NCBI GenBank assembly: GCA_903861005.1
Contig: CAIOSP010000164.1
Location: forward strand, 1-34,633
Source: an uncultured Pseudomonadota bacterium
GTDB lineage: Bacteria; Myxococcota_A; UBA796; GCA-2862545
Reading direction: 5' to 3'
Length of the DNA stretch: 34,633 nt
Positions 15,981-30,982 of this stretch are shown piece by piece (positions within the stretch are counted from its first letter, which is position 1; the number at the start of each line of letters is the position of its first letter). The position numbers and the translations under genes are program-made. The notes under the pieces are model-generated. The model was not told the origin of the DNA, did not search any database, and saw only the letters and a list, made by a program, of their open reading frames with translations.

Positions 15981-17843
15981 CTAAGAAGCGCGCCGACGAC
16001 GAAGCGCGACGAGCAGCGCCGCCAATGCAGCGACCGCGCCAGACGACGAGCCCGGCGTCGCGCAGCCGCCACCGCCAAAGTAGCCGGCCGTGCCATCGGT
16101 CCCGTTGCCGATCTCGTCGGGGTCCAGGTACGCGGGGACACCGTCAAAGTCGCCGTCGCCGGTGCCCTCGTCCGCGTCCGCGTGGTGATCGCCGTCGTCG
16201 TCGCGGTCCTTGTTGTTCGGGTGACCGTCGTCGTCGAGGTCGTAGTCCGCGGGGGACGTGCCCTCGGGGTACTCGGACGCCGGGCGGTCGCAGGTCTCCG
16301 TCAACGTCGGGATGCCGTCGCCGTCGTCGTCGTCGTCGAGCGAATCCGCGAGACCGTCTGCGTCGTAGTCGCCCGATGATCCGTCGGCGCGGCTCTCCGC
16401 GCCATCGAGCAGGCAGTCGCCGTCGCTGTCGGGGTTGAGCGGGTCCGACGGCGAGTGGAAGAACTCGACGTCGTCGCGCAGGCCATCCTCGTCGGAGTCG
16501 GCCTTGACCGGATCGGTGCCGGTGACGCACGTCTCCTGCACGTCGAACAACGTGTCGCCGTCGCCGTCCACCGTGCCGTCCACGACCTCGATCGTGAGCG
16601 TGGCCGACGTGGCCAGCCCGAGCCAGGTGAAGGTGTCCATCCAGGCGTTGTTGCCCTTGGAGACGCCCGAGAAGTTGCCCCACGCGCGGCTGTTGCCGTT
16701 CGGGTCGGTCGCCTGGTTGTAGGCGCCGGACGACAGCCCCGCCGCGCCCGACGTCACCAGGGACGCCTCGCCGTTGGGGAGCAGCACGTCGCCCGCGGCG
16801 ACCGCCTCGTCGTTCCAGAACATCGACAGGCCGCGGCGCGTGTTGCCACCCTGGTACTCGAACAGACGAACGCCCGGGTAGAGCGTCTCCATGTCGCGCA
16901 CCACGTAGTGCAGCTCGCCCACGCTGAGCGACACGCGGCAGTCGTAGGTACCGGGCGCGAGCGTGTCGCCGAACTGGTCCTTGCCGTCGAACGTGACGCG
17001 GTTGGCGCCGTTGGTCGCGGCGCCGGTGAGGTGCAGGTCCTCGTCGCCGGCCACGTTGAAGGTGCCGTCGCCGTCCAGGTCACACACCAGGTGCCAGGCG
17101 CCCTCGACGTTGCTGTCGAAGGTGAACGCGCCGTCGTAGAGCCCCGGCGCCATGGCCGTGCAGCTGCCGGCGTCCACCGAGAAGTCGACGTTCTGCAGCG
17201 TCGGCGTCAGCGGGTTGAGCGACGCGCTCTCGGGGGGGCGGATGTAGACCGCGAGGTTGCCGTGGTAGCCCTGGCCCACGTCCGGCACGCTGCGGCCCGG
17301 CGCGCTGAGCAGGCCGCGGTTGGACGCCTCGACCCGGTACAAGTAGCCGCCCAGGCCCTCGGCCTTGATCTCGATGACGCCGTCGCGGTCGGTCGAGCCA
17401 CCGTTCACCAGCGCGTAGAAGGAGCGGCTGAGCGCGCTCGATGGGCCAAACGACGACGAGTCGAAGCGCCAGTCGTCCGACCACATGCGGCCGCCGGTGG
17501 CGCTCGGCACCGTGAGGTCCCAGTGGGCGATGCGCGCCGACCACACGAAGCGCCACGCGCCGGACTGGTCCGGATTGATGGTGTCGCCGCTGTGGAACGT
17601 GCCGGCGGCGGTGCCGTCGGGACGGATCACGTCCACGTCCGCGTCACCCGTGTAGACGATGACCTCGGTCGCGTCACGGAGCACGTCGACGTACACGGCC
17701 GACTGCGGCATCAGGAAGTCGACCTGCGGTAGATCGAGGGAGCCCTCCGCGTGGGCGACGCCCGACGCGCCGAGCGTCAGGGCGACCAGCGGAACACCAA
17801 GCAGGAACGGGCGACGCGCGAGCGCGCGTGTGCGGGCGATCAC
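15981..17843 (-). CDS. TSP3-repeat surface protein with MYXO-CTERM-like tail
   Basis: The protein has 620 residues. It starts at GTG 17843, which overlaps the stop of the OmpA-family gene by GTGA, with GGAGG about seven bases upstream. Residues 1-32 form a signal peptide ending in GVAHA. A large beta-rich region (33-420) has no recognised family. Residues 425-580 carry thrombospondin type 3-like calcium-binding repeats (DSDGDCLLDG, DDDDDGDGIP, DLDDDGHPNN). The tail at 587-620 has GGGGC with Cys594, a hydrophobic helix and RRRR, a C-terminal sorting signal like MYXO-CTERM. It should end at the cell surface and bind Ca2+. Coupling to the OmpA-family gene suggests joint work. Role inferred; repeats and tail are seen. 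Confidence 0.87.
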   Translation of the reverse strand: MIARTRALARRPFLLGVPLVALTLGASGVAHAEGSLDLPQVDFLMPQSAVYVDVLRDATEVIVYTGDADVDVIRPDGTAAGTFHSGDTINPDQSGAWRFVWSARIAHWDLTVPSATGGRMWSDDWRFDSSSFGPSSALSRSFYALVNGGSTDRDGVIEIKAEGLGGYLYRVEASNRGLLSAPGRSVPDVGQGYHGNLAVYIRPPESASLNPLTPTLQNVDFSVDAGSCTAMAPGLYDGAFTFDSNVEGAWHLVCDLDGDGTFNVAGDEDLHLTGAATNGANRVTFDGKDQFGDTLAPGTYDCRVSLSVGELHYVVRDMETLYPGVRLFEYQGGNTRRGLSMFWNDEAVAAGDVLLPNGEASLVTSGAAGLSSGAYNQATDPNGNSRAWGNFSGVSKGNNAWMDTFTWLGLATSATLTIEVVDGTVDGDGDTLFDVQETCVTGTDPVKADSDEDGLRDDVEFFHSPSDPLNPDSDGDCLLDGAESRADGSSGDYDADGLADSLDDDDDGDGIPTLTETCDRPASEYPEGTSPADYDLDDDGHPNNKDRDDDGDHHADADEGTGDGDFDGVPAYLDPDEIGNGTDGTAGYFGGGGCATPGSSSGAVAALAALLVALRRRRAS

Positions 17844-19768
17844 TGTCCACCTCCCTGCTCGATCTGCTGTTTGGCCTTGTCGAGGAGCGTAAACACCACC
17901 CGACGGTTGAGCGCACGACCGGCGGCCGTGTCGTTCGTGGCGATGGGCCGCGCCTCGCCGAAGCCGCGCGCGAGGAGCTGCTCCTCGGGCACACCGCGCT
18001 CGACGAGGTAGTCACGCACCGAGTTGGCGCGCGCGTCCGACAGATCGAGGTTGCCGTCGTCGGACCCCTGGTCGTCGGTGTGGCCCTCGATGAGCACGCG
18101 GCCGACCTTGTTCGCGAGGATGGTGTCCGCGACCTCGTTGAGCAGGTCGAAGGACTCCTTCTTGATCGTGGCGAGACCCTCGTCGAAGTAGACCTTGTCG
18201 AGGATCTTGAGCTCCTTGGCGCCGACTTCGACGCGGGTGGGGAGCAGCTGCGTGCGGATGATCGCCTGACCCTGAGGATCGATGGTGACCTCCTCACGGT
18301 ACACGCGGTAGCCGGGCGCCTCGACGTAGACGTTGTACGTGCCGGGGCCGACCGGGTGGTCCGCCTTGCCGGTGGTTCCGAGCGGATAGCCGTCGGTGTC
18401 GGCGCAGCCGAGCATGCGGGCGGTGGGCTCCCACCGGGCGACCGCGCCGGTGACCGGACGTCCCTGGTTGCCGGTCAGGTCGTAGGTGACGTGGCCCGTG
18501 CGCACCGCGCGAAGCGCGACGTCCAGCGCGTTGTTGCCCTGGTTCAGGGTCGCGGAGCCGTCACCGATCAAGCAGTCACCCAGCGTCGCGCTCACGTCGT
18601 ACGTGGCGCCCGGCGGCAGGTCGGAGGACACGTGCGCGTCGGACGTGGACGTGAAGGTCTCGCCGGCGTCGGCGCCGCGCTTCACCATCTCGACGTCGGC
18701 GCCGACCACAGGCTTGCCGTCCCACATCATGCGCACCGACAGCGCGGACAGCGAGTCGGGGCAGCCGTCGTTGTCCTGGTAGCCGTTGGGGGTCTCAGGA
18801 TCGTCCGGGCACTTGTCGATGGTGTCGAGCACGCCGTCCTGGTCGCGGTCAGACGGGGTCGGGGCCTCGATCTTGCCGTAGCCCAGGCCGATGAAGGCCC
18901 GCGCGCGAGGGGCGCCCACGCCGGGGCTGATGCCGACCGCGCCGCCGAAAAGCAGGTTCAAGCCGTTCGCCTGACGGTTGCGCAGGGTGAGCGTCAGCTC
19001 CATGGGGGACTCGGTCAGCGCGTGCCCGTTGTTCTTGGCGAGCGCGACGGCGAGGTTGCCTTCCAGGTTGAGCGAGGTCGTCTTGGCGACCAGGTAGCCG
19101 AGGCCCAGGCCCGCGGTGAACTGATCGGCGCCCGCCAGGTTGTCCAGCGCCACCTTGGGCACGAACTGGGCGCCCGCCTCACCGGTCCAGGTGAACCCGC
19201 CGACTGCGTACGACGCCGCGAGGCTGCCGCCGCCAGCCAGGAAGCTCTGGCCGAGGAACTTCTTCTCGGCGCCCAGCGGCGCGTCCAGGTGGCCGTAGAC
19301 CGCCAGCCCGAACCCGTGCTCGTCCGCCTTGGGGATGAGGATCGGGATCATGGCCGTGGCGCGCAGATCGCCCATGGCGACGCCTTGGTAGGCGCCCTGC
19401 CGGTCGAACGACGCGAAGTAGACGGGTGCGGCGATGTCCAGGCGGAAGCGCTCATGGAAGCTCAAGCCGGCGGACACGTTGAGCGCGACGACGTTGTCCA
19501 GCCAGGGGGTACGCACCTTGGTGCCGTCGGCCAGCACATCGTGACGGACGAGCGGCTGGCTGGCGTACTCGAACACGCCGCCCACCCAGCCGTCCCACTG
19601 GGTGAGACGTCCAGGACGGTTCACGCGCAGGGGATCTCGAAGATCACCGTCGTACGCCGCAAGGAACAGGTCATGGGCATCGAAGAACCGGGTTGTCCCC
19701 GATGCTCCGTCCTGCGCCCACGCGCTACCGGACAGCGCCAGGGCCAGGATCACGCCAGTCGACAGCAT
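17840..19768 (-). CDS. OmpA-family outer-membrane protein with TSP3 and carboxypeptidase/PEGA-like domains
   Basis: The protein has 642 residues. A signal peptide (1-18, ending AWA) leads to a beta-barrel-like part up to about residue 300, a TSP3-like stretch with DRDQDGVLDTIDKCPDD, two or three beta-sandwich modules (for example GPGTYNVYVEAPGYRVYRE, PEGA-like), and a C-terminal OmpA/MotB domain. The last has ILIEGHTDD-type peptidoglycan-binding residues (LIEGHTDDQGSDDGNLDLSD) and ends in NRRVVF. It should link the outer membrane to peptidoglycan. ATG 19768 was chosen: GGGAG lies five to six bases upstream, and the earlier ATG at 19795 falls inside a predicted -10 element. It follows the receptor gene across a 120-base gap with two hairpins. 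Confidence 0.88.
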   Translation of the reverse strand: MLSTGVILALALSGSAWAQDGASGTTRFFDAHDLFLAAYDGDLRDPLRVNRPGRLTQWDGWVGGVFEYASQPLVRHDVLADGTKVRTPWLDNVVALNVSAGLSFHERFRLDIAAPVYFASFDRQGAYQGVAMGDLRATAMIPILIPKADEHGFGLAVYGHLDAPLGAEKKFLGQSFLAGGGSLAASYAVGGFTWTGEAGAQFVPKVALDNLAGADQFTAGLGLGYLVAKTTSLNLEGNLAVALAKNNGHALTESPMELTLTLRNRQANGLNLLFGGAVGISPGVGAPRARAFIGLGYGKIEAPTPSDRDQDGVLDTIDKCPDDPETPNGYQDNDGCPDSLSALSVRMMWDGKPVVGADVEMVKRGADAGETFTSTSDAHVSSDLPPGATYDVSATLGDCLIGDGSATLNQGNNALDVALRAVRTGHVTYDLTGNQGRPVTGAVARWEPTARMLGCADTDGYPLGTTGKADHPVGPGTYNVYVEAPGYRVYREEVTIDPQGQAIIRTQLLPTRVEVGAKELKILDKVYFDEGLATIKKESFDLLNEVADTILANKVGRVLIEGHTDDQGSDDGNLDLSDARANSVRDYLVERGVPEEQLLARGFGEARPIATNDTAAGRALNRRVVFTLLDKAKQQIEQGGGQ

Positions 19769-19790
19769 GAAGTCTCCCACGAGGGGCAAT

Positions 19791-19819
19791 TGCATACCGA
19801 ATTCTGACGATCCTCACAA
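19791..19819 (-). promoter_or_regulatory. Sigma70-like promoter before the OmpA-family gene
   Basis: On the minus strand a -35 TTGTGA (19814-19819) and a -10 TATGCA (19791-19796) are separated by exactly 17 bases. Transcription would start around 19783, leaving a leader of about 15 bases that still holds the GGGAG ribosome site. It lies downstream of two hairpins that follow the receptor gene, so the OmpA-family and TSP3 genes could be expressed on their own. Confidence 0.45.
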
Positions 19820-19888: not shown

Positions 19889-22800
19889 TCAGAGCTTCCA
19901 GCCGAGCTCCAGGCCGAGCGACCAGCCCGGCCGACGCGACTCGATCACCTCGTCGCCGAGCGTGAACGTTCGCTTGGAGTCAAGCAGGTTCTTGCCCGAC
20001 AACTTGACGTCGAAGCCCTTGGCGATCTTGGCGCCGAACACCACGTCGAGCGCATGGAACGGCATCTCGCGGCTGTCAGGCAGGCCGAACGAGCCGACCT
20101 CCGAGATGCGGGGACCAAACACGTTGTACAAGATCGCGGCGTTGATCCCGAGATCGGGGTTGTCGTAGCCGACCTGCGCGTTCACGACCCACGGGCTCTG
20201 CCCCTGGAGCGGTCGGATGTTGTTGGTCTGGGCGCCGGCGTTGGTGTCATCGAGCTCGACGCGGGAGCGGATGAGCGCCGCGTTTGCCGCCACGTAGAGG
20301 TCGCGCAGCGCAGGCGACGCGAACTCAAAGCCCTTGCGGACCTCAAACTCCAGGCCGAGGTTCGTGGCGCGCAGCGCGTTGGTGTACGTCAGCGCCTCGT
20401 CGGAGCCGATGATGACGAGGTTCTCGATCGGGTTGGTGAACAGCTTGGCGAACCCGCTGACCGACACGACGTCGCCTCGGTCCGGGAACCACTCCCAGCG
20501 CAGGTCGATGTTGTCGATCAGCGCGCGCTTGAGCTCGGGGTTGCCGAAGTTGGGTCGGCCGCCCGTGACGTCGACGTAGGCCGCTGGCGACAGCTCGCGG
20601 AACTCGGGGCGCGACAGCGTGCGGCCGTACCCAGCGCGGACGTCCATGTCGTCGCGCGGCTTGAACGTCAGCGTGACCGCAGGAAGCACGTCGGTGGTCG
20701 CCAGATCGCTGACGATCGGCTTGCCGTCCGGGTTGAACAGCTCGAACGTCGTGACCTGCTGCTTGCTGTTCTCAACCCGCAGACCGGCCATCACCTCAAA
20801 CCAGGACGTGACCGGGATCTCCGCGAGCGCGTAGCCCGAGATCACCCGCTGACCCGCGAAGTAGTTGTCCGTCGCCTGCGTGATCTCCTTGATCTGGAAG
20901 CCGTCGGGCGCGATGGCGTCCTGCGTGAAGATCTGCTCAGCGTCCGCCTGCAGGGCGTCGGAATTCTTGTCGCCCTTGTTGAGGAACGAGAAGCGACGGG
21001 TGTCGACGCTGCGGTTCTTGTCGATGAGCGACGCGCCCATCTTCACGCGCCCCTCGGAGTCCTTGCGGACGAGGAACGGCACCGTGACGTTGAGCGCAGC
21101 CTCGTGGGTGTCGTCGCCCAAGGTGCTGAAGAAGCGCGAGTTGGAGTCGCCGTCGCGGCTAGACAGACGGAAGGCGCCCGCGGCGGCGTCCCAGTCGTAG
21201 CGGTTCTCGCGGCGGTCGGGCTCCAGGCGGCTGGCGCGCGCGAACTCGTAGCGCCAGTCGATCTTGGAGGGGTGCTCCCCCGTGGCCAGCTCGTGCGAGC
21301 CCTGCACCTGCTGCACGATGAGCATACGCTCGATCCAGCGGATGCGGTTGACCTTGATCTCGTAGCCGTCGTCCGGGTAGTTGCCCTGGAACACACGGCT
21401 CTCGTCGTCCGTGTTGCGCAGGAGCATCGTCGTCGCGGAGATCTCCTGGCCCTCGGCCGGCTTCGCACCCAACGTCAGCAGCCCGCTCATGCGGATGCGG
21501 TTGTTGGTCTGGTTGAAGTCGTAGAAGGTGTTCTCGATCGGCTTGCCCTGCGACACGTCGTAGTAGTGATGGGCGTACTGATCCGACTGCCACTCATTGC
21601 CGTACGAGAAGGCGAGCAGCGCGCCCACCGGGCGGCCACCGAGCTTGAAGCCGTTGCCCAGCGTGATGTTGAGGCCGACGTCCGGCGCGACCAGCTTGCC
21701 GTGCGGCGTCCACACGTTGCTGAACGCTCTCCCAAGCGTCTGGAGCTCGTCGGCGGTGTAGCCGGTGGTCGAGAAGCGGTCCTTCTCCTTGAGCGGCGAC
21801 TCCTCGCTCGCCGCGACCACGGACGCGGGCTCGGCGCGCGTGCCGTTGTCCATGCCGAGGAAGTCGGTGGGGCCGCGATCGTAGACCAGGCCTTGCTGGA
21901 AGGAGGTGCCGCCGCGCACGAGCGACGACACGCTCACCTTCACGACGGGGCCGCTCGGGAACGCGAGCGTGCGGAGCAGCACGACGCCGCCGCCGAACTC
22001 GCCAGGCATGTCGGGCGAGAAGGTCTTCTGCACGACCACGCTCTCCAGCACGCTGGCCGGGAACATGTCGAGGGGGACGACGCGACGCTCGGGCTCGGGG
22101 CTCGGGAGCTGCGCGCCGTTGACGATCGTCATCGAGTAGCGCTCGCCGAGACCGCGCACGTAGACGTACTTGCCGTCGACGAGCGTGAGGCCGGTCACGC
22201 GACGAAGCGCCGAGGCCGCGCTGCTGTCGCCGCTGCGCGACATCTGCTCGGCGCCGAGCACGTCCGCGACCACGCTGCTCTCACGACGCTCGTCGAGGAG
22301 CGCCGCCGTGTTGCCGGTGACCTTGGGCGCGTGGACCGTGAAGTCCTCGAGCGCGAGGCCGGCGGGCACCAGCACGATCGAGACCTCGGTCGGCTTGCCC
22401 TCAACGAGGACCACGTCAGGGACGGACTGCGCGGCGTAGGCGCTCGCGACGATCGACAGCTCCCAGCTGCCCACCGGGAGCTCGATCGAGAAGTGACCCT
22501 GCGCGTCGGTGACGGCTTCGTCATTGCGACCGCGGACGAACACGCGCGCGCCGCGCACGGCGGTGCCATCGGCGTCCGACTTGATCGTACCAGACAGCGT
22601 GCTGCGCGGACGTGAGGCCTCGTCGACCGAGGGCGCGACCTGTTCGGCCGGCACCTCGTTGGTGGACGAGAGCGGCGCCTCCTCGTGGCTCCAGGTGATG
22701 AGCAGCTCGCTGGACTTGCCAGGCTCGACGCGGATGGTGCCCGCAGAGCGCGTCACGCCATCGACGCCGACGACCGACACGGGCCACGTGCCCGCCGCCA

Positions 22801-22984
22801 CCGACACCACGAACCGACCGGCCGCGTCCGTGGCGCCCGTCGACTCACCCACGTGCACGACCAGACCGGCGAGCGGCGCGCCCGAGCCATGCTCGAACAC
22901 CACGCCCACCACCTGCCCGTCTGCCTCCTGCGCGTACGCGGAGAGCGGCATGGCGAGCACGGCGGCCCACCCCAAGCGTCGCAT
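19889..22984 (-). CDS. TonB-dependent outer-membrane receptor with two N-terminal beta-sandwich domains
   Basis: The protein has 1031 residues. A signal peptide (1-18, ending AYA) is followed by two carboxypeptidase-regulatory-like domains (about 24-98 and 129-206). A possible TonB box is EDFTVHAPK (213-221). The plug spans about 232-345, with VRGLGERYSMTIVNG and VQKTFSPDMPGEFGGG typical of the family. The rest is a 22-strand-type barrel ending in SLGLELGWKL, with the terminal hydrophobic residue expected for Bam insertion. It should bind and import an unknown substrate using energy from the TonB complex encoded upstream. ATG 22984 overlaps the previous stop by one base (TGATG), with GGAGG eight bases upstream; an in-frame start at 23014 is rejected. 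Confidence 0.93.
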   Translation of the reverse strand: MRRLGWAAVLAMPLSAYAQEADGQVVGVVFEHGSGAPLAGLVVHVGESTGATDAAGRFVVSVAAGTWPVSVVGVDGVTRSAGTIRVEPGKSSELLITWSHEEAPLSSTNEVPAEQVAPSVDEASRPRSTLSGTIKSDADGTAVRGARVFVRGRNDEAVTDAQGHFSIELPVGSWELSIVASAYAAQSVPDVVLVEGKPTEVSIVLVPAGLALEDFTVHAPKVTGNTAALLDERRESSVVADVLGAEQMSRSGDSSAASALRRVTGLTLVDGKYVYVRGLGERYSMTIVNGAQLPSPEPERRVVPLDMFPASVLESVVVQKTFSPDMPGEFGGGVVLLRTLAFPSGPVVKVSVSSLVRGGTSFQQGLVYDRGPTDFLGMDNGTRAEPASVVAASEESPLKEKDRFSTTGYTADELQTLGRAFSNVWTPHGKLVAPDVGLNITLGNGFKLGGRPVGALLAFSYGNEWQSDQYAHHYYDVSQGKPIENTFYDFNQTNNRIRMSGLLTLGAKPAEGQEISATTMLLRNTDDESRVFQGNYPDDGYEIKVNRIRWIERMLIVQQVQGSHELATGEHPSKIDWRYEFARASRLEPDRRENRYDWDAAAGAFRLSSRDGDSNSRFFSTLGDDTHEAALNVTVPFLVRKDSEGRVKMGASLIDKNRSVDTRRFSFLNKGDKNSDALQADAEQIFTQDAIAPDGFQIKEITQATDNYFAGQRVISGYALAEIPVTSWFEVMAGLRVENSKQQVTTFELFNPDGKPIVSDLATTDVLPAVTLTFKPRDDMDVRAGYGRTLSRPEFRELSPAAYVDVTGGRPNFGNPELKRALIDNIDLRWEWFPDRGDVVSVSGFAKLFTNPIENLVIIGSDEALTYTNALRATNLGLEFEVRKGFEFASPALRDLYVAANAALIRSRVELDDTNAGAQTNNIRPLQGQSPWVVNAQVGYDNPDLGINAAILYNVFGPRISEVGSFGLPDSREMPFHALDVVFGAKIAKGFDVKLSGKNLLDSKRTFTLGDEVIESRRPGWSLGLELGWKL

Positions 22985-24132
22985 CACGGGCAACCTCCGG
23001 CGGCGCCGCGGCACGCGCTCATGGCTTCACGGAGCGCCGTGGCGTCGCGGAACACACGCGGGTCGGCGATGCCCTGCAGGTGTCGCTCGGCGCGGTCCAC
23101 GTCGCCCAGCTCGAACGCGCTGTAGGCCAGCGCGTAGCGGACGCCGTCGTCCTTCCCAAGCGAGAGGCGATCCAGGCGGTCCTCAAGCGACAGCGCGCGC
23201 GACCAGTCCGCCTGCTCGACGTACAGGCCAAGCCGCTGACGGGCCTTCTCGGCGGGATCGACGACGCGCCCGTTGAAGTAGAGCGCGCGGTCGAGCTGCC
23301 CGGCCTGACGCGCCGACTCAGCCGCCGCGATGAACAGCGACGGATCGACCTCCGCCGCGACGCCCAGGATGTCCGCGGCGATCGAGGCGTGACCGGTCTG
23401 CAGGTACAGACGGCCGAGCAGCTTGGACACGTCGACGCTGTCCGGGAAGCGCATGCGCGCCTCCTCCAGAAGCGCGATCGCCTCCTGCTCCTCGCCCGCG
23501 TTGCGCATCGCCTCGGCGAGGCCGAGCCACGCGGTGCGATCGCCGGGCTGCTTGGCGAGCCACGCGCGGCCCTGGCTGACGGCCTCCTGGTAGAGGCCCA
23601 GCGACACGAGGAGCGCTACCTTCTGGCGGCCGAATTCCAGCTCCGCCGGGAAGCGGGCCTCGCCGTCGGCGAGCGCGCCCCACGCCTCACGCGGGTGAAC
23701 CAAGTCCACCTGCGCGCGCGCGAGCAGCAGCCACGAGCCCGCCAGCGCCCTGCCCGCCTCGCCTGACGCGGCGATCGCGTCGACCGCGGCCTGCGGATCC
23801 TTGGTCTCCAGCAGCGCGCGCGCGAGGTGCAGGTTCACCAGAGGGTCCGCCTCCTTCTGCGCGAGCGCTTGGCGGAAGTCCTCGATCGCCTGCTCAAACA
23901 GGTTGGCGTGGGCGCGGACGAGGCCGCGCAGCGTGTAGAAGCGGGCCTTGTCCAGGTGGCGATCGGCCACGTCCACGTCGGCGAGCACGCGCTCGGCGCG
24001 GTCCCAGTGTCCGTCGCTCACCATCAGCGCCGCGAGCTCGACCGGATCCACGTCCTGGGGCTCTTCGGCGATGGCCGGCTTCAGCCACAGCGCCAGCGCA
24101 GCCGCCAAGATCAGACGCACGTTGGGTCCCAC
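22984..24132 (-). CDS. Periplasmic TPR protein of the TonB2-type locus
   Basis: The protein has 382 residues from GTG 24132, three bases after the tonB stop, with GGAG seven bases upstream. A signal peptide (1-22, ending AIA) is followed by some nine TPR-like helical repeats (for example LFEQAIEDFRQALAQKEAD and LYLQTGHASIAADILG). Two Cys residues occur only in the last 11 residues (SACRGAAGGCP), which may form a small disulfide loop. A TPR gene in this position directly after tonB is known from the Vibrio TonB2 clusters, where it is a conserved companion of unclear function. It may help the TonB complex meet the receptor. Confidence 0.85.
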   Translation of the reverse strand: MGPNVRLILAAALALWLKPAIAEEPQDVDPVELAALMVSDGHWDRAERVLADVDVADRHLDKARFYTLRGLVRAHANLFEQAIEDFRQALAQKEADPLVNLHLARALLETKDPQAAVDAIAASGEAGRALAGSWLLLARAQVDLVHPREAWGALADGEARFPAELEFGRQKVALLVSLGLYQEAVSQGRAWLAKQPGDRTAWLGLAEAMRNAGEEQEAIALLEEARMRFPDSVDVSKLLGRLYLQTGHASIAADILGVAAEVDPSLFIAAAESARQAGQLDRALYFNGRVVDPAEKARQRLGLYVEQADWSRALSLEDRLDRLSLGKDDGVRYALAYSAFELGDVDRAERHLQGIADPRVFRDATALREAMSACRGAAGGCP

Positions 24133-24135
24133 GGC

Positions 24136-24786
24136 TTACTCCAGCTCGAAGCGCAAGGTCTGGCGTACGCGGACGGCGACTGGCGCGCCCTGGTACATCG
24201 CGGGCTCGAACCGCCACTGCTTGATCGCGTCCACGGCCGCGGCCTCGAACACACCGGAGGGCTGCGCCTCCAGCACGCGAACATCCTGCACCGAGCCGTC
24301 GTTGCTCACGCGCAGCGAGAGCGTGACGAAGCCGGTGATCGCCGAAGCGCGCGCACGCGCGGGGTAGTCCGGCTGCACGCGACTGGACGGCCGCGGCGGC
24401 ACGTCCACCGCGTCCTCGTTCATCACGGTCTGGGACACGTCACCGACGATCGAGCGTGTCGCCTCGTCGAGCGCGCCACCCAGACCGGGCAGACCGAAGT
24501 CCATACCAGCGAGGCCTGGCGCGAACGCGGCGCTCGGAGGAGGCGCTGACTTGGCGGCGCGCGACGCGGCGGCTTGCTTGGGACGGGCGGCGGCGCTGCG
24601 GGGCGGAGGCTTGCTCGACGAGGGCACGTCGAAGCTCACGACCTTGGCGGCCGTCTCCGTCTTCTTGTCGGTGTTGATGTGCTTGAGGAGGTCCAGCACC
24701 GCGGACGTGGCCGACAGGCCGACCACGACGCCGACGACGCCCATGAAGCGTCGGACCCAAACAAAGGCGGTGCTCTGGACCTTCAA
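24136..24786 (-). CDS. tonB: TonB energy-transducing protein
   Basis: The protein has 216 residues. It opens with a single membrane segment (about 12-34). A Pro/Ala/Lys linker (KPPPRSAAARPKQ, SAPPPS) spans part of the periplasm, and a TonB C-terminal domain (about 140-215) begins at PDYPARARASAITG and includes AVDAIKQWRFEPA, the hallmark of the domain. It couples proton flow through ExbB/ExbD to opening of the receptor. The TTG at 24786 lies one base after the exbD stop and is the only start before the membrane segment; no close ATG exists until residue 15. The SxxxH motif of the classic TonB helix is not clear. It is short, as is usual for TonB2-type proteins. Confidence 0.9.
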   Translation of the reverse strand: MKVQSTAFVWVRRFMGVVGVVVGLSATSAVLDLLKHINTDKKTETAAKVVSFDVPSSSKPPPRSAAARPKQAAASRAAKSAPPPSAAFAPGLAGMDFGLPGLGGALDEATRSIVGDVSQTVMNEDAVDVPPRPSSRVQPDYPARARASAITGFVTLSLRVSNDGSVQDVRVLEAQPSGVFEAAAVDAIKQWRFEPAMYQGAPVAVRVRQTLRFELE

Positions 24787-24787
24787 A

Positions 24788-25195
24788 TCAGCCGCCTTCC
24801 GCGTCCGTGATCACGCCCACGTCCGACGCGCCGGCCAGGCGGCACTGATCGACCACCTCGATCAGCTTGTCGGCCGACACCCGCCGATCGGTCACGACGA
24901 GAACGCTTCCGTCACCCTGCTCGCGCAGGAAGTCACGCACGCGCCCCTGTAGCGCCCAGGGCTTCACAGGCACGTCGCCCACCCACAGCGCGCCGTTGCG
25001 GTCCAAGGTCACGCGCAGGGCCGAGGCCTTGGGCGTGGAGCCGCTGGACGCCGACGGGCGCTCGATGTCGACCTTGGTCTCCTGAGTGAACTTGGCGGTG
25101 AGCATGAAGAAGATCAGCAACACCATCATGACGTCGATGAGCGGCGTGACGTTGAGGTCAGCCTTCTCTTCGGCGGGGCGGCTCTTCAGGAGCAT
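24788..25195 (-). CDS. exbD: ExbD/TolR proton-channel subunit
   Basis: The protein has 135 residues. The N-terminus reads LNVTPLIDVMMVLLIFFM, the signature of ExbD, with the essential membrane Asp at residue 21. A single membrane helix (about 20-36) is followed by a periplasmic alpha/beta domain (SVLVVTDRRVSADKLIEVVD). It forms the proton path with ExbB and drives TonB. Its start overlaps the end of exbB by 10 bases and GGAGG sits four to five bases before the ATG, so expression is coupled. Confidence 0.96.
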   Translation of the reverse strand: MLLKSRPAEEKADLNVTPLIDVMMVLLIFFMLTAKFTQETKVDIERPSASSGSTPKASALRVTLDRNGALWVGDVPVKPWALQGRVRDFLREQGDGSVLVVTDRRVSADKLIEVVDQCRLAGASDVGVITDAEGG

Positions 25196-25770
25196 GACGC
25201 CTCCTTCGCGGCGAGGTGTTCGACCACCGCGTCCAGGCAGCTGTCCAGCGTGGTCTGTCGACGGTCGAGCAGCGCGCCGATCATCAGACCGGGGACGGCG
25301 ACGACCAGCCCAAGCTCGGTGGCGGTGAGCGCCAGCGCGATGCCAGCCGCCACGCCCTCGTTCTTCCCCACCTCAGCGGACGACGACATCATCCCAAACA
25401 TGTCGACCATGCCCGCGACGGTGCCGAGCAGGCCCAGCAGCGGCGACACCGCGGCGGTGCTGCGCACCAGGTCGGCGTGGATGGCGAGGTCGAGCTGGTA
25501 GGGGCCAACCACGGCCTGGAGCTGCCCCTTCTTGGGAACTCCGTGCCGCAGGTCGGTCTCACGGACGAGCGCGCGAACCCCGCGGTCGTAGACGTTGCGC
25601 GGGCGAGCGCCGGAGCGCGCGCGCTCGATGGACGCCTCAGGCAGCGGCACGCCGAAGCCCGCGAGCGTGAACATACGCACGCCGATCCCGTACCAGAGCA
25701 CGACCATGCACACGAAGATCCACGGCCCGACGACGTCCGCGGAGCCGAGCGCGTCGACGAGTCCGGTCAC
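25186..25770 (-). CDS. exbB: ExbB/TolQ/MotA-type proton-channel subunit (small)
   Basis: The protein has 194 residues with three membrane segments: 13-34, about 105-124 (AVSPLLGLLGTVAGMVDMF) and about 140-168 (ALALTATELGLVVAVPGLM). These are the conserved MotA/TolQ/ExbB helices; the second has the LLGLLGTV motif and the third the T.xGL..A.P pattern. It makes the ring in which ExbD moves. It lacks the extra N-terminal periplasmic domain of the upstream paralogue, as in the small ExbB2 of Vibrio. GTG 25770 overlaps the preceding stop by GTGA. Confidence 0.94.
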   Translation of the reverse strand: MTGLVDALGSADVVGPWIFVCMVVLWYGIGVRMFTLAGFGVPLPEASIERARSGARPRNVYDRGVRALVRETDLRHGVPKKGQLQAVVGPYQLDLAIHADLVRSTAAVSPLLGLLGTVAGMVDMFGMMSSSAEVGKNEGVAAGIALALTATELGLVVAVPGLMIGALLDRRQTTLDSCLDAVVEHLAAKEASCS

Positions 25771-27152
25771 TTGCCCACCCCAGCGAGCGGCGCCTCGTGC
25801 GGGATCTCAGGGTCGGCGCCGGTCTCGGTGGCGTTGATCAGGCGCAGCGCCGAGTTCTCGACCCGCGACATGACCGAGTGGCCCCAGCCGAGCAGGATGT
25901 GGCCGATCAGCAGCGACGGGATGGCGACGGCCAGACCGAACTCGGTGGCGATCAGCGCCTCGGAGATACCGCCCGACAGCAGCTTGGGGTCTGCGTTGCC
26001 GAACAGGGTGATCGCCTCGAAGGTGCGGATGATGCCGCTGACCGTACCGAGCAGACCGACCAGCGGCGCGACCGTGGCGATGACAACGATGGTGGAGCCG
26101 AAGCGCTCGATGCGGGGCTGCTCGGTGATCAGCGCCTCGCGGGCCAGATCCTCAAGCGCGCCGCGGCCCGCGTCCAGGTGCGCCATCAGGCGAGACACGA
26201 CGCGAGGCGCGCTGCCCTTGGCCTTGGCGAGCAGGCGGGCCGCGTCATCGGCCCGGCCCTTGGCGACGAGGTCGATCGCCTTGTCGGTGACCGACGCGCC
26301 GCGCGAAGCGAGCAGCAGCCCGAGCACGCGCAGGACGATCAGCACCAGCGACGCGGCGCCGAGCGACAGGATGCCGTTGCCGACCCAGCCCGCCTCAAGG
26401 CGCATCTCGTCCCACGTGCGGACGTGCGGCTCCTCGATGCGCTTCTCGCGCCCTTCGTGGAGGAACAGGCCCATGGTCGCAGGCTTCTGCTTGGCGAGCA
26501 GCGCGTCGGCGGTGGCGCCGCCGCCGTTCGACCAGGCGCGGAGCGTGCCGTCTCCGACGGGCACGAGCGCCGTGTTCGTGGCGGCGAGGCCGTACGTGGC
26601 GATCTCACCGACGCGGAGCAGCTTGCCCTTCACGGCCGCGCCCTTGGCGTCGAAGAAGGTGCCCTCTTCGACCTTGATCTCGCCGAGCTCGCCGAGGCGG
26701 CTGGCGGCGGCTTCGAACGCGCGGCCGAAGCCCTCGGCGTAGCCGGCCAGATCCTTGGTCGTGGGGTCCGCGAGCGTGAAGCCGGGACGCTCGAGGTCGG
26801 TGCGCGCCTGGAACCACGTCACGTCGACGGTGTCCTGGGCCTCGCTCACCTGACCGGCGGCGCGCTGGGCGTCACCGAGCGACTGGTCGGCAGACTCACC
26901 CTGGATCTGGATCGCGGTCAGCCGCGCCTCCAGACCGTCAAGCTGCGCGTCGGCCTTGGCGCGCGCGGAGTCGGCCTCACGGCGCTGAGCGGCGAGCCGC
27001 TGCTCCAGGCTCTCCTTCTCAGCGATCAGGTAGGCGTACTCCTTCTGGTAGGCCGCCTGCAGAGGGTCGGCGACCGTGGAGGGGGCCGGGACGTCCTGGG
27101 CGTACGCGGGCGCGGAGGCAAACGCGAGCGCGATCCAGAGTGCGTGCTTCAC
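25767..27152 (-). CDS. TtpC-type large MotA/TolQ/ExbB protein with periplasmic domain
   Basis: The protein has 461 residues. It has a signal peptide (1-19), a long periplasmic part (20-254) that starts with a coiled coil (about 38-105), then three membrane helices (255-283, 352-374 and 400-423). The last two are the MotA/TolQ/ExbB proton-channel domain with APLVGLLGTVSG and TEFGLAVAIPSL. This architecture is that of TtpC, the extra component needed by TonB2 systems in Vibrio. It pairs with the small ExbB directly downstream. GTG 27152 overlaps the DUF3450 stop by GTGA, with GAGG seven bases upstream. TtpC is the family call; its mechanism remains open. Confidence 0.9.
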   Translation of the reverse strand: MKHALWIALAFASAPAYAQDVPAPSTVADPLQAAYQKEYAYLIAEKESLEQRLAAQRREADSARAKADAQLDGLEARLTAIQIQGESADQSLGDAQRAAGQVSEAQDTVDVTWFQARTDLERPGFTLADPTTKDLAGYAEGFGRAFEAAASRLGELGEIKVEEGTFFDAKGAAVKGKLLRVGEIATYGLAATNTALVPVGDGTLRAWSNGGGATADALLAKQKPATMGLFLHEGREKRIEEPHVRTWDEMRLEAGWVGNGILSLGAASLVLIVLRVLGLLLASRGASVTDKAIDLVAKGRADDAARLLAKAKGSAPRVVSRLMAHLDAGRGALEDLAREALITEQPRIERFGSTIVVIATVAPLVGLLGTVSGIIRTFEAITLFGNADPKLLSGGISEALIATEFGLAVAIPSLLIGHILLGWGHSVMSRVENSALRLINATETGADPEIPHEAPLAGVGK

Positions 27153-27910
27153 TGGGACACCTCGGGGAGCGCGAAGGGCAGCTCGAACCAGCCGACGCGC
27201 TGCTGCTTGTCCATGGAGGAGAAGAGCGAGTTGACGCGCAGGGCGTCCTGCGGATCGTCGAGCAAGCGGTTGGACCAGGCGGCGCCGTCGCGCTGGACCA
27301 CGCCGACCTTGCCGTCCTCGGTGCGGAAGTACATAGCGACCATGCCGAGCCGCGCGACCTGCACGAACATCTCTTGGCCGCCCACGGTGATGACCTGACG
27401 GTCGAGGACGTTCTCACGCCCCAGCCGCAGCTCGTCTTCGATGGACTGCCACACGCGGCCGACCGCGACGCGCGGGTCAACCAGCTTGCCCGCGACCTGA
27501 TCGCGGACGGTGGTGAGCGCGGCGACGCGCTCGTCGAGTCGGTACGGCAGGCCCGACTTGACCTGGGCGATGAGGCGATCGAGGCCCGCGATCACGGTGG
27601 GCGCGAGGGTCTCGTACGCGGTGGCGTCGGCCATGACGGCGGCGCGCTGCCGGTCGAGCTCACGCTGAAGCTCGGCCACCCGCAGCTCCTCCTGGCGGAT
27701 CTGCGTCTCGAGCTCCGTGCGGCGAAGCTCGCTCGCCCGTAGGTCGGTGCGCAGCGCGTCGCGTTCGGTGTCGAGGGTCTGCGACAGATCCTCCACGGTG
27801 GTGCGGAGCTCGGCGAGCTGGTGCGCGTAAGCCGCGGGGTCATCTGCGCGCGCCACAGACGCGATCGAGCTGACCGCGAGCGCGAACAGGAGAGGAGTGG
27901 ACGAGCGCAT
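27149..27910 (-). CDS. DUF3450 periplasmic coiled-coil protein
   Basis: The protein has 253 residues with a signal peptide (1-22, ending ARA). A long coiled coil (about 28-95) is followed by a mixed domain whose conserved patterns (GLDRLIAQVKSGLPYRLDERVAAL, then VFVQVARLGMVAMYFRT-like and VGWFELPFALP) match the DUF3450 family. DUF3450 genes stand first in TonB2/TtpC clusters. The protein is thought to act in the periplasm with TtpC; no activity is known. ATG 27910 has GAGGT six bases upstream. Three copies of a 9-base repeat lie just before it. Confidence 0.9.
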   Translation of the reverse strand: MRSSTPLLFALAVSSIASVARADDPAAYAHQLAELRTTVEDLSQTLDTERDALRTDLRASELRRTELETQIRQEELRVAELQRELDRQRAAVMADATAYETLAPTVIAGLDRLIAQVKSGLPYRLDERVAALTTVRDQVAGKLVDPRVAVGRVWQSIEDELRLGRENVLDRQVITVGGQEMFVQVARLGMVAMYFRTEDGKVGVVQRDGAAWSNRLLDDPQDALRVNSLFSSMDKQQRVGWFELPFALPEVSQ

Positions 27911-27925
27911 TCAGACCTCGAGCGG

Positions 27926-27952
27926 GGTTCCGGCGGTTCCGGCGGTTCCGGG
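27926..27952. repeat. Three tandem 9-base repeats in the leader of the DUF3450 gene
   Basis: GGTTCCGGC occurs at 27926-27934 and 27935-27943, and a third copy with one change (GGTTCCGGG) at 27944-27952. They lie 16 to 42 bases before the start codon at 27910, on the other side of the SD sequence, so in the leader or promoter. The unit GGTTCC.GG contains a GGAACC core on the reading strand. Function unknown: operator or a slippage-prone tract. Confidence 0.6.
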
Positions 27953-27961
27953 AGACGACAA

Positions 27962-27989
27962 GGGCGTGAGCGCAAACGCGCCCACGCCC
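27962..27989 (-). terminator. Hairpin after the beta-helix lipoprotein gene
   Basis: On the minus strand GGGCGTG-G-GCGC pairs with GCGC-T-CACGCCC around a GTTT loop, giving 11 Watson-Crick pairs and one G-T pair. The stretch after it, CTTGTCGTC, is slightly T-rich. It begins 17 bases after the lipoprotein stop at 28006, so it is the best-formed terminator of the window. It would separate, at least in part, the lipoprotein message from the downstream DUF3450 operon. Confidence 0.7.
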
Positions 27990-28005
27990 CAGGGAGTGCG
28001 AAGGA

Positions 28006-29487
28006 CTAGTTCGCGGCGTGCGTGGTCCAGCCAGCGGTCCAGTCATCCGCGCCGATGGCGCCGATGAAGTTCGTGGCGTCGATGAGCGGGTCGGACAGGT
28101 CGTTGCCCGGCTTGTTCAGCAGCGGCGAGCCCGAGGCCGGCTTGTAGTTGGGCGCGGTCTCGTTGTAGGCGGCCGTGATCTTCGGGTCGGTGCCGACGAC
28201 GTTGCCGTCGTTGAGGGTGCGAACGAAGTCGTCGACCGTGAACTGGCTGCCGTCGTCCGCGTCCGCGGGGAACGGCGTGGCGGAGATCGCCGGGCAGTAG
28301 AAGTAGCTGTTCGAGACGGCCAGGCTGCCGTTCAGCGCCGACGTGCCCGCGTCCCAGGCGTTGGTGAAGGTCGAGGCCTTGTCGAGGTCGAGGCAGGACG
28401 CGCCGTAGCCCTGGACCGCGAACTTGTTGAACTTGCCCCAGGTGCCCTCACGGAGGAGGAGGCCCGCGGTGGAGAGCGGCGTGCCGCCGTTCTGCGCGGC
28501 GATCAGCGTGAAGTTCTGCAGCGTCGGGTTGGAGCGCGGCGTCGCCTCGTTGTTGTTCTTGTTGTTGTCGCCTTCGATGCCGCGGTCGGCGGCCGTGTTG
28601 AAGGCCTGGACGACCACGTACTGCACCTTGCCGCTGAAGCCGTCGGTGTAGTCGAAGCCGTCGTCCTGCGCGCCGGTGATGACGAGGTGCTTGGCGTTGA
28701 CCGTGCCGCCGAAGAACTCGATGCCGTCATCGGCGGTCTGGTGCGTCTGGACGTAGTCGACGACCGTGCCGTCGCCGACGCCCTGGAACGCGATGCCGTT
28801 GAGCTCGTTGGTGGTGTTGATCAGGGTGCCGGCGAACTCGACGCGGACGTAGCGGAGGATGCCCGAGCTGTCGTGCGAGTCCTGGCCGCCGTAGGTGCCG
28901 GTGGCGGCCTCACCGGGGATGTTGCACTCCGAGGGGCTGGCGCAGGAGTTGGACGGCGCGCGGCCGTTGATCACGAGACCGCCCCAATCCGACGGGCCGC
29001 GCGAACCGTCGAGCTGCGCGGAGGTGAAGAGGATCGGCGCGGCCTTGGTGCCGTCGGCGATGAGCTTGCTGCTGCGCTGGATGACGAGGAAGCCGTCGGT
29101 CGCGCCGTCGCCGAACACCGAGGTGCCGGGGCGAATGGCGAGGATGGTCTCGTGGACGTCGTCACCGATGAACACGCCGCCCTTGAGGATCCAGTTCTTG
29201 TCCGGCGTCATGGTGAACGACTCGGTGATCGTGCCCGTGAGGCTGACGTTGTTGCCGTCGCAGGAGATGCCGGAGATCGTGCAGGGGTCCGTGTCCGGGT
29301 AGGTGTCGACGACGTCCGTGTCGTTGATGTCCGTGTCGTTCGTGTCGACCGTGTCCGTGTCGTTCGTGTCGACCGTGTCGTTGGTGTCCGTGTCCGACAC
29401 GTCCGTGTCGCCGTCCTTGGAGCCGTCGGCGCAGGCGAAGGTGAAGGATCCGGCGAGGGCGAGGAGGATGAGGAGCTTCGAGTTCAT
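28006..29487 (-). CDS. Beta-helix-type lipoprotein of the transport locus, function unknown
   Basis: The protein has 493 residues. The N-terminus (LLILLALAGSFTFAC) is a probable lipoprotein signal with Cys19; Thr at -3 and Phe at -2 of the lipobox are unusual. Residues 27-67 are a low-complexity Asp/Thr-rich linker. The rest has repeated short strands with Gly/Asp/Asn turns and the recurrent pieces TSAQLDGSRGPSDWGGLVIN and FGGTVNAKHLVITGAQDDGFDY, as in right-handed beta-helix proteins of a family I know only as hypothetical. It is first in the block, so it may be the surface partner of the receptor. ATG 29487 is preceded by GGAG nine bases upstream; a longer frame to 29541 has no support. Confidence 0.85.
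   Translation of the reverse strand: MNSKLLILLALAGSFTFACADGSKDGDTDVSDTDTNDTVDTNDTDTVDTNDTDINDTDVVDTYPDTDPCTISGISCDGNNVSLTGTITESFTMTPDKNWILKGGVFIGDDVHETILAIRPGTSVFGDGATDGFLVIQRSSKLIADGTKAAPILFTSAQLDGSRGPSDWGGLVINGRAPSNSCASPSECNIPGEAATGTYGGQDSHDSSGILRYVRVEFAGTLINTTNELNGIAFQGVGDGTVVDYVQTHQTADDGIEFFGGTVNAKHLVITGAQDDGFDYTDGFSGKVQYVVVQAFNTAADRGIEGDNNKNNNEATPRSNPTLQNFTLIAAQNGGTPLSTAGLLLREGTWGKFNKFAVQGYGASCLDLDKASTFTNAWDAGTSALNGSLAVSNSYFYCPAISATPFPADADDGSQFTVDDFVRTLNDGNVVGTDPKITAAYNETAPNYKPASGSPLLNKPGNDLSDPLIDATNFIGAIGADDWTAGWTTHAAN
29287..29409 (-). repeat. Asp/Thr-codon tandem repeat in the lipoprotein gene
   Basis: Residues 27-67 of the lipoprotein alternate D, T, N and V (DTVDTNDTDTVDTNDTD). On the plus strand the DNA reads as repeats of GTGTCCGTGTCG and GTGTCGACC-like units. 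Such DNA is prone to slippage and could vary in length by steps of 3 or more bases, changing the reach of the lipoprotein above the membrane. Confidence 0.75.
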
Positions 29488-29836
29488 CAGTGCGTTCTCC
29501 GCGAGGGTCTCCACCGGATTTGGTGGTGAACGCCCGCCCATTAAGAAGGGGTCCGTGACAGGCCGCCCTCGTACTGGTGAACACCTGCCAAAGCCCGAGA
29601 ACTGATCGCGACGGTTCCGTGACGCTGGATCGTGGGCGGATCAGGCGGGACATTCGACACAGGACCGAGACGCCGACGAGGACCGTCCGACACCCATGGC
29701 CGAATTACACTGATTCAAACTAATAGATCCGAATCCGAATAATCTGCCCATAAATGCCGCCCTGTGTGACAGACGCGGCATGAACGGACACCCCGGCACC
29801 AAACCGACACGCGTACGACAGATCCACGTTTCGCTG
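29488..29836. promoter_or_regulatory. Gene-free region with AT-rich island, likely promoter of the transport locus
   Basis: No reading frame of any credibility is present in these 349 bases. About 29697-29756 is strikingly AT-rich (by eye about 37 % GC) with the repeat ATCCGAATCCGAAT. It lies about 210 to 270 bases before the lipoprotein start at 29487 on the coding (minus) strand. I could not fit a convincing -35/-10 pair or sigma54 site, so the promoter position is undecided. The region most likely holds the promoter for the whole block, and the terminator of the glycosyltransferase gene. Confidence 0.55.
29754..29781 (-). terminator. Hairpin downstream of the glycosyltransferase gene
   Basis: On the minus strand ATGCCGC and GCGGCAT form a 7-pair outer stem, with CTGT / ACAG as a 4-pair inner stem around a 3-base loop; small unpaired bases separate the two. 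TTTATGG follows. It begins about 55 bases after the glycosyltransferase stop at 29837, so it is a plausible terminator. The weak T-run lowers confidence. Confidence 0.45.
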
Positions 29837-30982
29837 TCACATGAGCGTTGCGTAGAACTGCAACAACTCCGTCGCACGCGCCGCCCAGCTCCACTGCGCG
29901 GCGACCTCCGCGCGCGCTTCACGTCCGAGCTTGAGCAGCTGATCAGGTTCGGCGAGGCACGCTCGCAACGCGCGACCCAAGGCCTGCGGCGTGTCGTCTG
30001 CGCGCACGCATCCGGCGATGGGCTGCGCAGAGCCAGCCGCGGCGACCGTCACGACGCCGGCACCCAGGGTGTTGAGGAGCTTGATCGGAAAACCGGCACA
30101 CAGGCGTCGCGGCACCGCGGCGATCGCGCCCACGGACAGCGCGTCGGCCAGGTCCGGCAAGCCGTGGACCTGCGCGACGCGCACGCGATCGCGGGACAGA
30201 CGGGCCGCGTCGACGTACGCCCACACCTCCTCCGGCAGCGACGACGTCGCCATCAGCAGGCCCGCATCGGGCACGTGGTGCATCGCCTCCATCAGGAGGT
30301 CCAGGTCCTGGTAGGCGTCCGTGTTGCCCGTGTAGAGGACCCAATGGCGGTCATCGAGCCCCCACCGCGCGCGCGCCCTCGCGGCGTCGCCGCCTCGCAA
30401 CTCGTCGACGTTCACGCCCGGCCCGATGCGCACCACCCGTTCGGCACCGTGGGCGCGAAGGTGCACCTCCGCGCGCTCCGACAGCGCGACGCACGCGTCC
30501 GCCATGCGCGGAATGGCGTGATCGACCGCGCGCCCGAGCGGACCGGCCACCTTGCCAGCGAGCCCCCGCCGCCAGTAGGCCGGAAGCTCTTCCTCCAGAG
30601 ACGTGTGCAGATTGTACACAAGCGGCACGCGCGCCGCGCACAGCGCGCGCGCCAGCGCGGCGACGAACGGGGCCTCGACGTTGTGCGCGTGGACCACGTC
30701 GATTCGATCCCGCCTAAGCACCCTCGCGACGGACATCACCAGCGCCGCGTCCAACAGCAGCTTGCCCGCGTGCGGTCCGCTTCGTGGCGACTGCAGCGCG
30801 TCGAGCCTGGGCATCGGGACGCGCTCGACGCCCGCAGGCCAGGCGCCCTCGCCGCCGTAGGTCGCGAGCCAAACCCGCGCGCCTGCCGCGGCGAGCGCGC
30901 CGCACATGCCCCCCACGTAGACCTGCGAGCCCTGACCGAGTGGGAACGGAAAGGCCCCCACTTGGAGCACCGCGAGCGTCAC
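29837..30982 (-). CDS. GT4-like glycosyltransferase
   Basis: The protein has 381 residues with two Rossmann-like halves. The N-terminal half has GGMCGALAAAGARVWLATYGG and DVVHAHN (95-101); the C-terminal half has RIGPGVNVDEL, VLYTGNTDAYQDLDLL and GFPIKLLNTLGAG (297-309). These mark family 4 glycosyltransferases, which add sugars from activated donors in the cytoplasm. The EX7E motif position reads with Lys301 and Asn304 and lacks the second Glu, an oddity shared by some GT4 subgroups. GTG 30982 overlaps the stop of the sulfatase-fold gene by GTGA. The joint product is probably a cell-surface glycan. Confidence 0.87.
   Translation of the reverse strand: MTLAVLQVGAFPFPLGQGSQVYVGGMCGALAAAGARVWLATYGGEGAWPAGVERVPMPRLDALQSPRSGPHAGKLLLDAALVMSVARVLRRDRIDVVHAHNVEAPFVAALARALCAARVPLVYNLHTSLEEELPAYWRRGLAGKVAGPLGRAVDHAIPRMADACVALSERAEVHLRAHGAERVVRIGPGVNVDELRGGDAARARARWGLDDRHWVLYTGNTDAYQDLDLLMEAMHHVPDAGLLMATSSLPEEVWAYVDAARLSRDRVRVAQVHGLPDLADALSVGAIAAVPRRLCAGFPIKLLNTLGAGVVTVAAAGSAQPIAGCVRADDTPQALGRALRACLAEPDQLLKLGREARAEVAAQWSWAARATELLQFYATLM

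Follow-up and report, generated by a model that had tools for sequence, protein, structure and literature searches.

Lipoproteins of the ElpS type have been described from bacteria responding to phosphate limitation. In Caulobacter, the surface lipoprotein ElpS (CC0170) is made under phosphate starvation and encoded beside the TonB-dependent receptor (TBDR) Cc0171 and type II secretion system (T2SS) genes, with a similar arrangement reported for X. campestris, S. alaskensis and H. neptunium; ElpS is located at the surface without need of the T2SS and its overproduction leads to more secreted phosphatase activity (PMC2996285). The Caulobacter PhoB regulon includes the T2SS genes as well as several TBDRs (PMC11208175). 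Equally, the ElpS-related proteins FI and FII of F. johnsoniae (31-36% identity) are among the strongest proteins at low inorganic phosphate (low Pi), with induction by low Pi, repression under Fe limitation and a location of FII, together with a TonB-dependent transporter (TBDT), in the phoBR operon (PMC8115612). On the energising side, the Vibrio tonB2 operon with the order TtpB2-TtpC2-ExbB2-ExbD2-TonB2-TtpD2 is iron-regulated (PMC6957404), while in M. xanthus the TBDT Oar and its Ton genes, organized in the cluster tonB1, exbB1, exbD1, exbD2, oar, are needed for secretion of PopC (PMC6434023). Here, we analyse a 34.6-kb stretch of DNA (the window), contig C164 in a 5.8-Mb genome; genomes of the same family belong to the Myxococcota (L049, apparently the same metagenome-assembled genome (MAG) locus as L129 of G069). 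At 19889-29487 on the minus strand the window encodes, in transcription order, a lipoprotein (LIP), DUF3450/TtpB, a TtpC-like protein, ExbB, ExbD, TonB, a TPR/TtpD protein and a TBDR. With a probability of about 0.7, this block is a phosphate-starvation uptake module: a receptor complex with a private energy supply, controlled by PhoB and serving a phosphorus-containing ligand; the confidence is lower for any specific ligand.

Each of the described systems shares some aspects with the locus. As in Caulobacter with its order ElpS-Cc0171-gspC-N, a lipoprotein of the same family occurs with a TBDR in a phosphate-starvation context, but the window has no T2SS genes and instead a TtpB/TtpC/ExbB/ExbD/TonB/TPR motor between lipoprotein and receptor. 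The F. johnsoniae loci PUSIII and PUSIV likewise combine a TBDT with an ElpS-related, predicted pectin-lyase-fold lipoprotein and strong low-Pi induction, whereas a private Ton motor has not been reported for them. Vibrio TonB2 has the six energising genes in the same order; in contrast, the window shows a divergent DUF3450, a separate TtpC clade, a cognate receptor and lipoprotein within the locus and a Pho-like rather than a Fur-like upstream site. The M. xanthus Ton-oar cluster is, like the window, a case of a myxobacterial TBDT whose complete Ton system is encoded along with it. However, Oar serves protein secretion, its cluster names no DUF3450 or TtpC, and the gene set resembles a second copy of the locus on contig C130 rather than the window; compared by gene set only, Oar may belong to the window's receptor type. 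In the open-access literature on DUF3450 or ExbB in connection with phosphate or the Pho regulon, no description of such a motor with an ElpS-receptor pair was found. The parts are all of known kinds, while their combination and repeated assembly are apparently undescribed so far.

An earlier, sequence-only reading of the window had recognized a Ton locus of the TtpB/TtpC type that includes its own receptor, had counted the lipoprotein as part of the module and had suggested a search for the gene order elsewhere. The same order recurs in many genomes, so that the arrangement is not due to chance, and the window-type gene set including the lipoprotein is found across Myxococcota and in some Pseudomonadota. 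Homologues of the lipoprotein occur in 119 of 284 sampled Myxococcota genomes (E<=0.001), with a few matches restricted to the Asp/Thr-rich linker, and on plasmids of Alteromonas, Pseudoalteromonas, Sphingomonas, Indioceanicola and Hymenobacter. Scanning genome contigs recovered 594 relatives, and the best 80 of these, which were retained, come from many phyla. Three arrangements can be distinguished, namely LIP-TBDR-gspC-F in Alphaproteobacteria, Xanthomonas and a SAR86; LIP and TBDR together with the DUF3450-TtpC-ExbB-ExbD-TonB-TPR motor, in Myxococcota as in the window and in Alteromonadaceae, where the receptor immediately follows LIP; and nothing but the TBDR/LIP pair in Poribacteria, Bacteroidota and Gemmatimonadota. 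Among loci flanked by at least 6 kb on either side (n=78), a TBDR of the window type is present at 66, the motor at 26, T2SS genes at 8 and a Pho gene at 23, and the commonest class of the surveyed loci has neither motor nor T2SS. The distance matrices of LIP and TBDR from 89 loci are correlated (r=0.79, permutation maximum 0.12), to which shared phylogeny contributes. In the window's own genome, only two of eight plug-domain proteins are of the window receptor type, both beside an ElpS-family gene; a PDB search with the receptor matched only carboxypeptidase D domains. The constant partner of the lipoprotein is the TBDR, with T2SS genes, a TtpB/C-type Ton motor or neither as exchangeable additions. 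The previously proposed tie between lipoprotein and TonB2 genes holds in window-type loci, where they co-occur, but the stable core consists of lipoprotein and receptor, and, judged by the refuting criterion of the earlier reading itself, the family is widespread independently of DUF3450-TtpC in Alphaproteobacteria with T2SS, Poribacteria, Bacteroidota and Gemmatimonadota. The second ElpS-type locus of the same genome (G000:C130 112000-128873, L156) has the order TonB-ExbB-ExbD-TBDR-LIP, accompanied by a phosphodiesterase and LamG-like domain protein and another LIP.

The link of these loci to phosphate is seen in their neighbourhoods. On the Alteromonas plasmid pBGP9, the order is PhoB-PhoR-PstS-2OG oxygenase-LIP-TBDR-DUF3450-TtpC-ExbB-ExbD-TonB-TPR. 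In genomes of the same family or the same order, PhoB and PhoR, divergently oriented, adjoin LIP (L129, L131, L135, L136) or PhoB alone is found beside LIP (L133, L137, L141); L136 has in addition PstS (292 bits with TIGR02136, above its cut-off), PstC and a PhoU-domain protein, and L131 a Porin_O_P protein. The label 'PhoB' leans also on context, since the three PhoB-like proteins scanned had TIGR02154 as best model with 205-242 bits, under the equivalog cut-off of 296. Pho genes are present at 7 of 38 Myxococcota loci versus about 0.028 expected per locus (p=7e-5), and at 24 of 119 LIP loci versus none of 17 DUF3450 loci that lack LIP (p=0.03). In the window itself, a direct repeat upstream of the lipoprotein gene, CGTCACGGAACCGTCGCG, resembles the repeats that precede both pst operons of this genome, TGTCACCGCATTGTCACA and CGTCACCCAATCGTCACA. 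This repeat is the top site of the whole window when scanned with a position weight matrix (PWM) built without the window, its score being reached in 4 of 1000 shuffles of the upstream region, and it is unchanged in the congener G118, with a diverged distal promoter region. Furthermore, in 122 LIP upstream regions GTCA pairs occur 11 times at spacing 11 and 15 times at spacing 22 compared with a mean of 1.7 at other spacings; spacing 21 is also raised (9); coding controls gave 0 and 2 pairs at spacings 11 and 22. CGTCACGGAACCGTCGCG is likely a Pho box, as judged from these comparisons.

The lipoprotein, with signal peptide and lipobox seen by inspection (MNSKLLILLALAGSFTFAC, Cys19), has no match in Pfam, NCBIfam or a PDB sequence search. 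A PDB search with the protein or its family profile gave nothing credible, and the 58-member family retrieved from Pfam, NCBIfam and PDB only three weak Beta_helix matches and one stray match. The AlphaFold2 model predicts a right-handed beta-helix with confidence (pLDDT 94, pTM 0.94), in line with the beta-helix features that had been noticed in the letters alone. Alignment of the model with VIA-align gave Z up to 22.7 to beta-helix chains, which is generic; solved chains sharing the fold include mannuronan epimerases, tailspikes, alginate lyases and polygalacturonases. Their identity is about 10% in every case, and since no Foldseek E-value was significant, with no match at E<=0.001, a single enzyme family could not be assigned by fold. 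Invariant in the 58 homologues from many phyla are W168, E193, T241, D253, D254, E257, D275, D279, Q289 and E305, while D276 is D or E and D206, E228 and D307 are near-invariant. The DDxxE (253-257) and DDxxD (275-279) motifs, invariant in the family, are 22 residues apart, which is about one turn of the helix, and this spacing suggests a stacked carboxylate ladder on the predicted beta-helix that may constitute a metal site or a catalytic centre. With 39% identity over 275 aa (E=1e-51) to the homologue of Oceanicaulis with the order LIP-TBDR-gspC (L074) and 39% identity to an Aquimarina protein (Bacteroidota), the lipoprotein appears to be a member of the same family as Caulobacter ElpS and Flavobacterium FI/FII, as concluded via syntenic relatives and published descriptions (PMC2996285, PMC8115612).

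Some further observations concern this family. The Asp/Thr/Asn-rich linker (residues about 20-70) is common to other proteins of the genome (C59, C117, C142, C50, C34; 51-62% identity over about 60-70 aa) and is perhaps a common tether of surface lipoproteins. The whole beta-helix domain occurs in tandem, in triplicate in an Alteromonas lipoprotein and in duplicate in Pseudoalteromonas and Indioceanicola (L039 6139-10209; L040 7429-10230; L041 7423-10293). On a contig of X. arboricola pv. guizotiae (L096 9425-11149), the ElpS homologue appears to be split over two overlapping open reading frames (ORFs) with a stop in the matched frame, which may reflect either an error of sequencing or decay of the gene.

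The motor has a history of its own. The DUF3450 genes of the 284 Myxococcota genomes comprise a high-scoring class of 57 (254-312 bits) and a low-scoring class of 55 (37-115 bits), and LIP is located within 1.5 kb of 0/57 high-scoring versus 32/55 low-scoring genes (Fisher p=1.8e-13); genomes G214 and G058 contain one of each class. The window DUF3450 (78.6 bits) falls outside the main high-scoring class, and in a quick TtpC tree of 51 rows, with SH-aLRT support only, the window TtpC is placed outside the clade of the main DUF3450 class. Because of this score and this position, the window motor is not filed as an orthologue of Vibrio TonB2 and would rather represent a divergent TtpB/TtpC-type. 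Since the LIP-linked TtpC genes form two separate sets, one Myxococcota-type that holds the window and extends to Marinicella, Methylothermaceae and a Planctomycetota MAG, the other from Alteromonadales/Marinobacteraceae/Bermanella and grouping with the unlinked main class (SH-aLRT 100), the tree indicates that motor and LIP-TBDR pair have been joined at least twice. Within the window's family, L133 and L141 have LIP, TBDR and PhoB without a motor nearby. Myxococcota also possess high-scoring DUF3450..TPR clusters without nearby window-type receptor or lipoprotein (L171-L181), probably the counterparts of the Vibrio TonB2 motor.

The substrate had been left unassigned in the sequence-only reading; the PhoB/PhoR/Pst neighbours, the Pho-box-like site and the literature on ElpS and FII now add phosphorus as the likely nutrient, and from these we infer the substrate class and an inward direction of transport. 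At low phosphate, phosphorylated PhoB (PhoB-P), encoded elsewhere in the genome with candidates on C3, C30 and C130, would bind the repeat and induce the lipoprotein gene together with the motor-receptor genes that follow. The lipoprotein of ElpS type would be brought to the external side of the outer membrane; there its beta-helix could capture or help to cleave a phosphorus-containing ligand via the invariant carboxylate ladder, perhaps metal-bound, and hand the ligand to the partner TBDR. The receptor would be opened by TonB, powered by ExbB/ExbD and aided by TtpC, TtpB (DUF3450) and the TPR protein, and phosphate freed in the periplasm might enter the cell via Pst.

Several points weigh against this uptake of phosphorus compounds. 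The 34.6-kb window contains no Pho gene, and 55 of the 78 LIP loci are without a Pho gene within the flank searched. The repeat is rated only a likely Pho box because one half-site is imperfect (GTCGC) and the bare pattern GTCACN6GTCRC, rejected as too weak for a Pho box on its own, is expected 0.61 times per window by chance; the PWM was, moreover, trained partly on LIP upstream sites of relatives. The connection to ElpS is drawn by synteny and literature statements, and for ElpS neither binding nor import of a ligand was demonstrated, with cc0171 expressed constitutively and no change of intracellular phosphate observed (PMC2996285). A more far-reaching version is tentative and rather doubtful: the private TtpB/TtpC-ExbBD-TonB-TtpD motor, recruited at least two times independently, might energise only the ElpS-type receptor complex and so import a polymer or ester that contains phosphorus and is bound by a carboxylate ladder, loaded with metal, on a beta-helix.

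Alternative functions have to be weighed against the phosphate-starvation module. An iron/siderophore or haem TonB2 system of the Vibrio kind, in which the lipoprotein would serve as haemophore- or siderophore-binding helper, would explain why the gene order equals that of the iron-regulated tonB2 operon (PMC6957404) and why one Pseudoalteromonas copy is located near siderophore genes. However, the main high-scoring DUF3450 class is a separate one that in Myxococcota never adjoins the lipoprotein gene, PhoB-like genes are repeatedly found next to the loci, the Flavobacterium homologues respond to low Pi and iron limitation in opposite directions (PMC8115612), and a consensus 19-mer with up to three mismatches found no Fur-box match in the window, which a diverged Fur box could nevertheless escape; an iron function is considered very improbable. 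Glycan uptake by the logic of SusCD, in which the lipoprotein binds or cuts a polysaccharide, the receptor imports oligomers and the phosphate link is regulatory only, is unlikely: although the model has pectin/alginate enzymes and phage tailspikes as its neighbours in fold, and the N-terminal carboxypeptidase-regulatory-like domains of the receptor resemble those of SusC proteins, Pfam and NCBIfam reveal no SusD domain in the lipoprotein, the SusC model TIGR04056 scores 24.9 bits versus a cut-off of 368 and covers the N-terminal domain only, and no carbohydrate-active enzyme (CAZyme) family is recurrent in 116 sampled neighbours, the recurrent neighbours of the loci being Pho genes.

Equally, receptor and motor might move a protein, possibly the lipoprotein, outwards in a process of export or surface assembly, just as PopC secretion depends on Oar. 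The requirement of Oar and Ton genes for PopC secretion (PMC6434023), the order TonB-ExbB-ExbD(-ExbD)-TBDR-LIP of the second copy and of loci L116 and L160, with a gene set like the Oar Ton cluster, and the T2SS genes in the motor's place in Alphaproteobacteria are all compatible with such a role. Caulobacter ElpS, however, reaches the surface without the T2SS (PMC2996285), the commonest class of loci has neither motor nor T2SS, and the linkage to Pho genes suits nutrient scavenging better; export appears as a very improbable explanation compared with the uptake of a phosphorus-containing ligand.

The features of the locus are compiled in Table 1. All eight genes that had been read from the letters are present in a row on one strand where they had been placed; Pfam matches above cut-off support seven of them, the lipoprotein being without match, and for the TBDR these are CarboxypepD_reg, Plug and TonB_dep_Rec. 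The overlaps and gaps reported from DUF3450 to the receptor are all correct, with GTGA shared by DUF3450/TtpC at 27149-27152 and by TtpC/ExbB at 25767-25770, a 10-base overlap of ExbB/ExbD (25186-25195), gaps of 1 base between ExbD and TonB and of 3 bases between TonB and TPR, and TPR stop and TBDR start overlapping as TGATG at 22984. The ATG at 22984, which gives a signal peptide, is most likely the start of the TBDR, the mechanical ORF extending to 23014. This translational packing begins with DUF3450, but does not include the lipoprotein gene, which is set apart by a 95-base gap containing a 13-pair stem-loop that could set an excess of lipoprotein over motor. At the same position, many relatives have strong but different stem-loops in the LIP/DUF3450 gap (no shuffle control).

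Table 1. Location and characteristics of the features of the lipoprotein-motor-receptor locus.
Feature	Position	Strand	Characteristics
Pho-box-like direct repeat CGTCACGGAACCGTCGCG	29607..29624	-	120-137 nt before lipoprotein ATG; PWM scan
ElpS-family surface lipoprotein (putative)	28006..29487	-	signal peptide, lipobox Cys19, Asp/Thr-rich linker (about 20-65), right-handed beta-helix (predicted)
13-pair stem-loop, lipoprotein/DUF3450 gap	27961..27990	-	possible attenuator or mRNA 3' stabiliser
DUF3450 protein (TtpB-like), divergent class	27149..27910	-	PF11932 78.6 bits, above cut-off
TtpC-like MotA/TolQ/ExbB protein, long N-terminal extension	25767..27152	-	PF01618 88.9 bits; tree
ExbB	25186..25770	-	PF01618 69.3 bits
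ExbD	24788..25195	-	PF02472 98.5 bits
TonB	24136..24786	-	PF03544 77.4 bits
TPR protein, TtpD-like by position and type	22984..24132	-	PF14559 71.1 bits; gene order as in Vibrio tonB2 operons (PMC6957404)
TonB-dependent receptor	19889..22984	-	two N-terminal carboxypeptidase-regulatory-like domains, TonB-box-like EDFTVHA, plug, barrel

Genes outside the block show little constancy. The idea that an OmpA-family protein and a sorted surface protein at the end of the block form a surface assembly around the receptor found no support. The MYXO-CTERM-like gene (15981-17843) has no homologue at any surveyed locus, and a relative of the OmpA gene (17840-19795) above the level of the OmpA domain is found at two surveyed loci only, upstream of the lipoprotein and not after the receptor, so that neither is regarded as part of the module. 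The 15981-17843 protein has DxDxDG-rich repeats and a C-terminal MYXO-CTERM-like tail just below the model cut-off (18.2 versus 20 bits). An endonuclease/exonuclease/phosphatase-family protein (14182-15741), encoded a few genes downstream of the block, was not found at other loci. A specific enzyme partner such as a phosphatase or CAZyme was rejected, as the 116 sampled neighbour ORFs, many of which may not be real genes, have no recurrent enzyme family, the most frequent families being aminotransferase, ABC, glycosyltransferase 4, 2OG oxygenase and TonB with 3 members each. Directly upstream of the lipoprotein gene on the same strand, a family-4 glycosyltransferase gene (29837-30982) is conserved in the congener (L170) and in the same-family genomes L127 and L145 (301 and 179 bits); the F. 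johnsoniae phoBR operon also has a glycosyltransferase gene, and a role in lipid remodelling at low phosphate is possible.

For the lipoprotein family, which spans Myxococcota, Pseudomonadota, Bacteroidota, Poribacteria, Gemmatimonadota and others, neither a Pfam or NCBIfam model nor a solved structure gives a sequence match. Relatives have been described in two experimental papers as lipoproteins of phosphate starvation with a function not settled, and the present locus makes the cargo of the ElpS-receptor pair a testable question. Equally, two DUF3450/TtpC lineages have been separated whose jobs are apparently different. If true, a dedicated Ton motor for phosphorus would amount to a SusCD counterpart for phosphorus that has an engine of its own. 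A privately energised phosphorus receptor would widen the range of TonB-dependent transport, for which iron, B12 and glycans are the best-known substrates.

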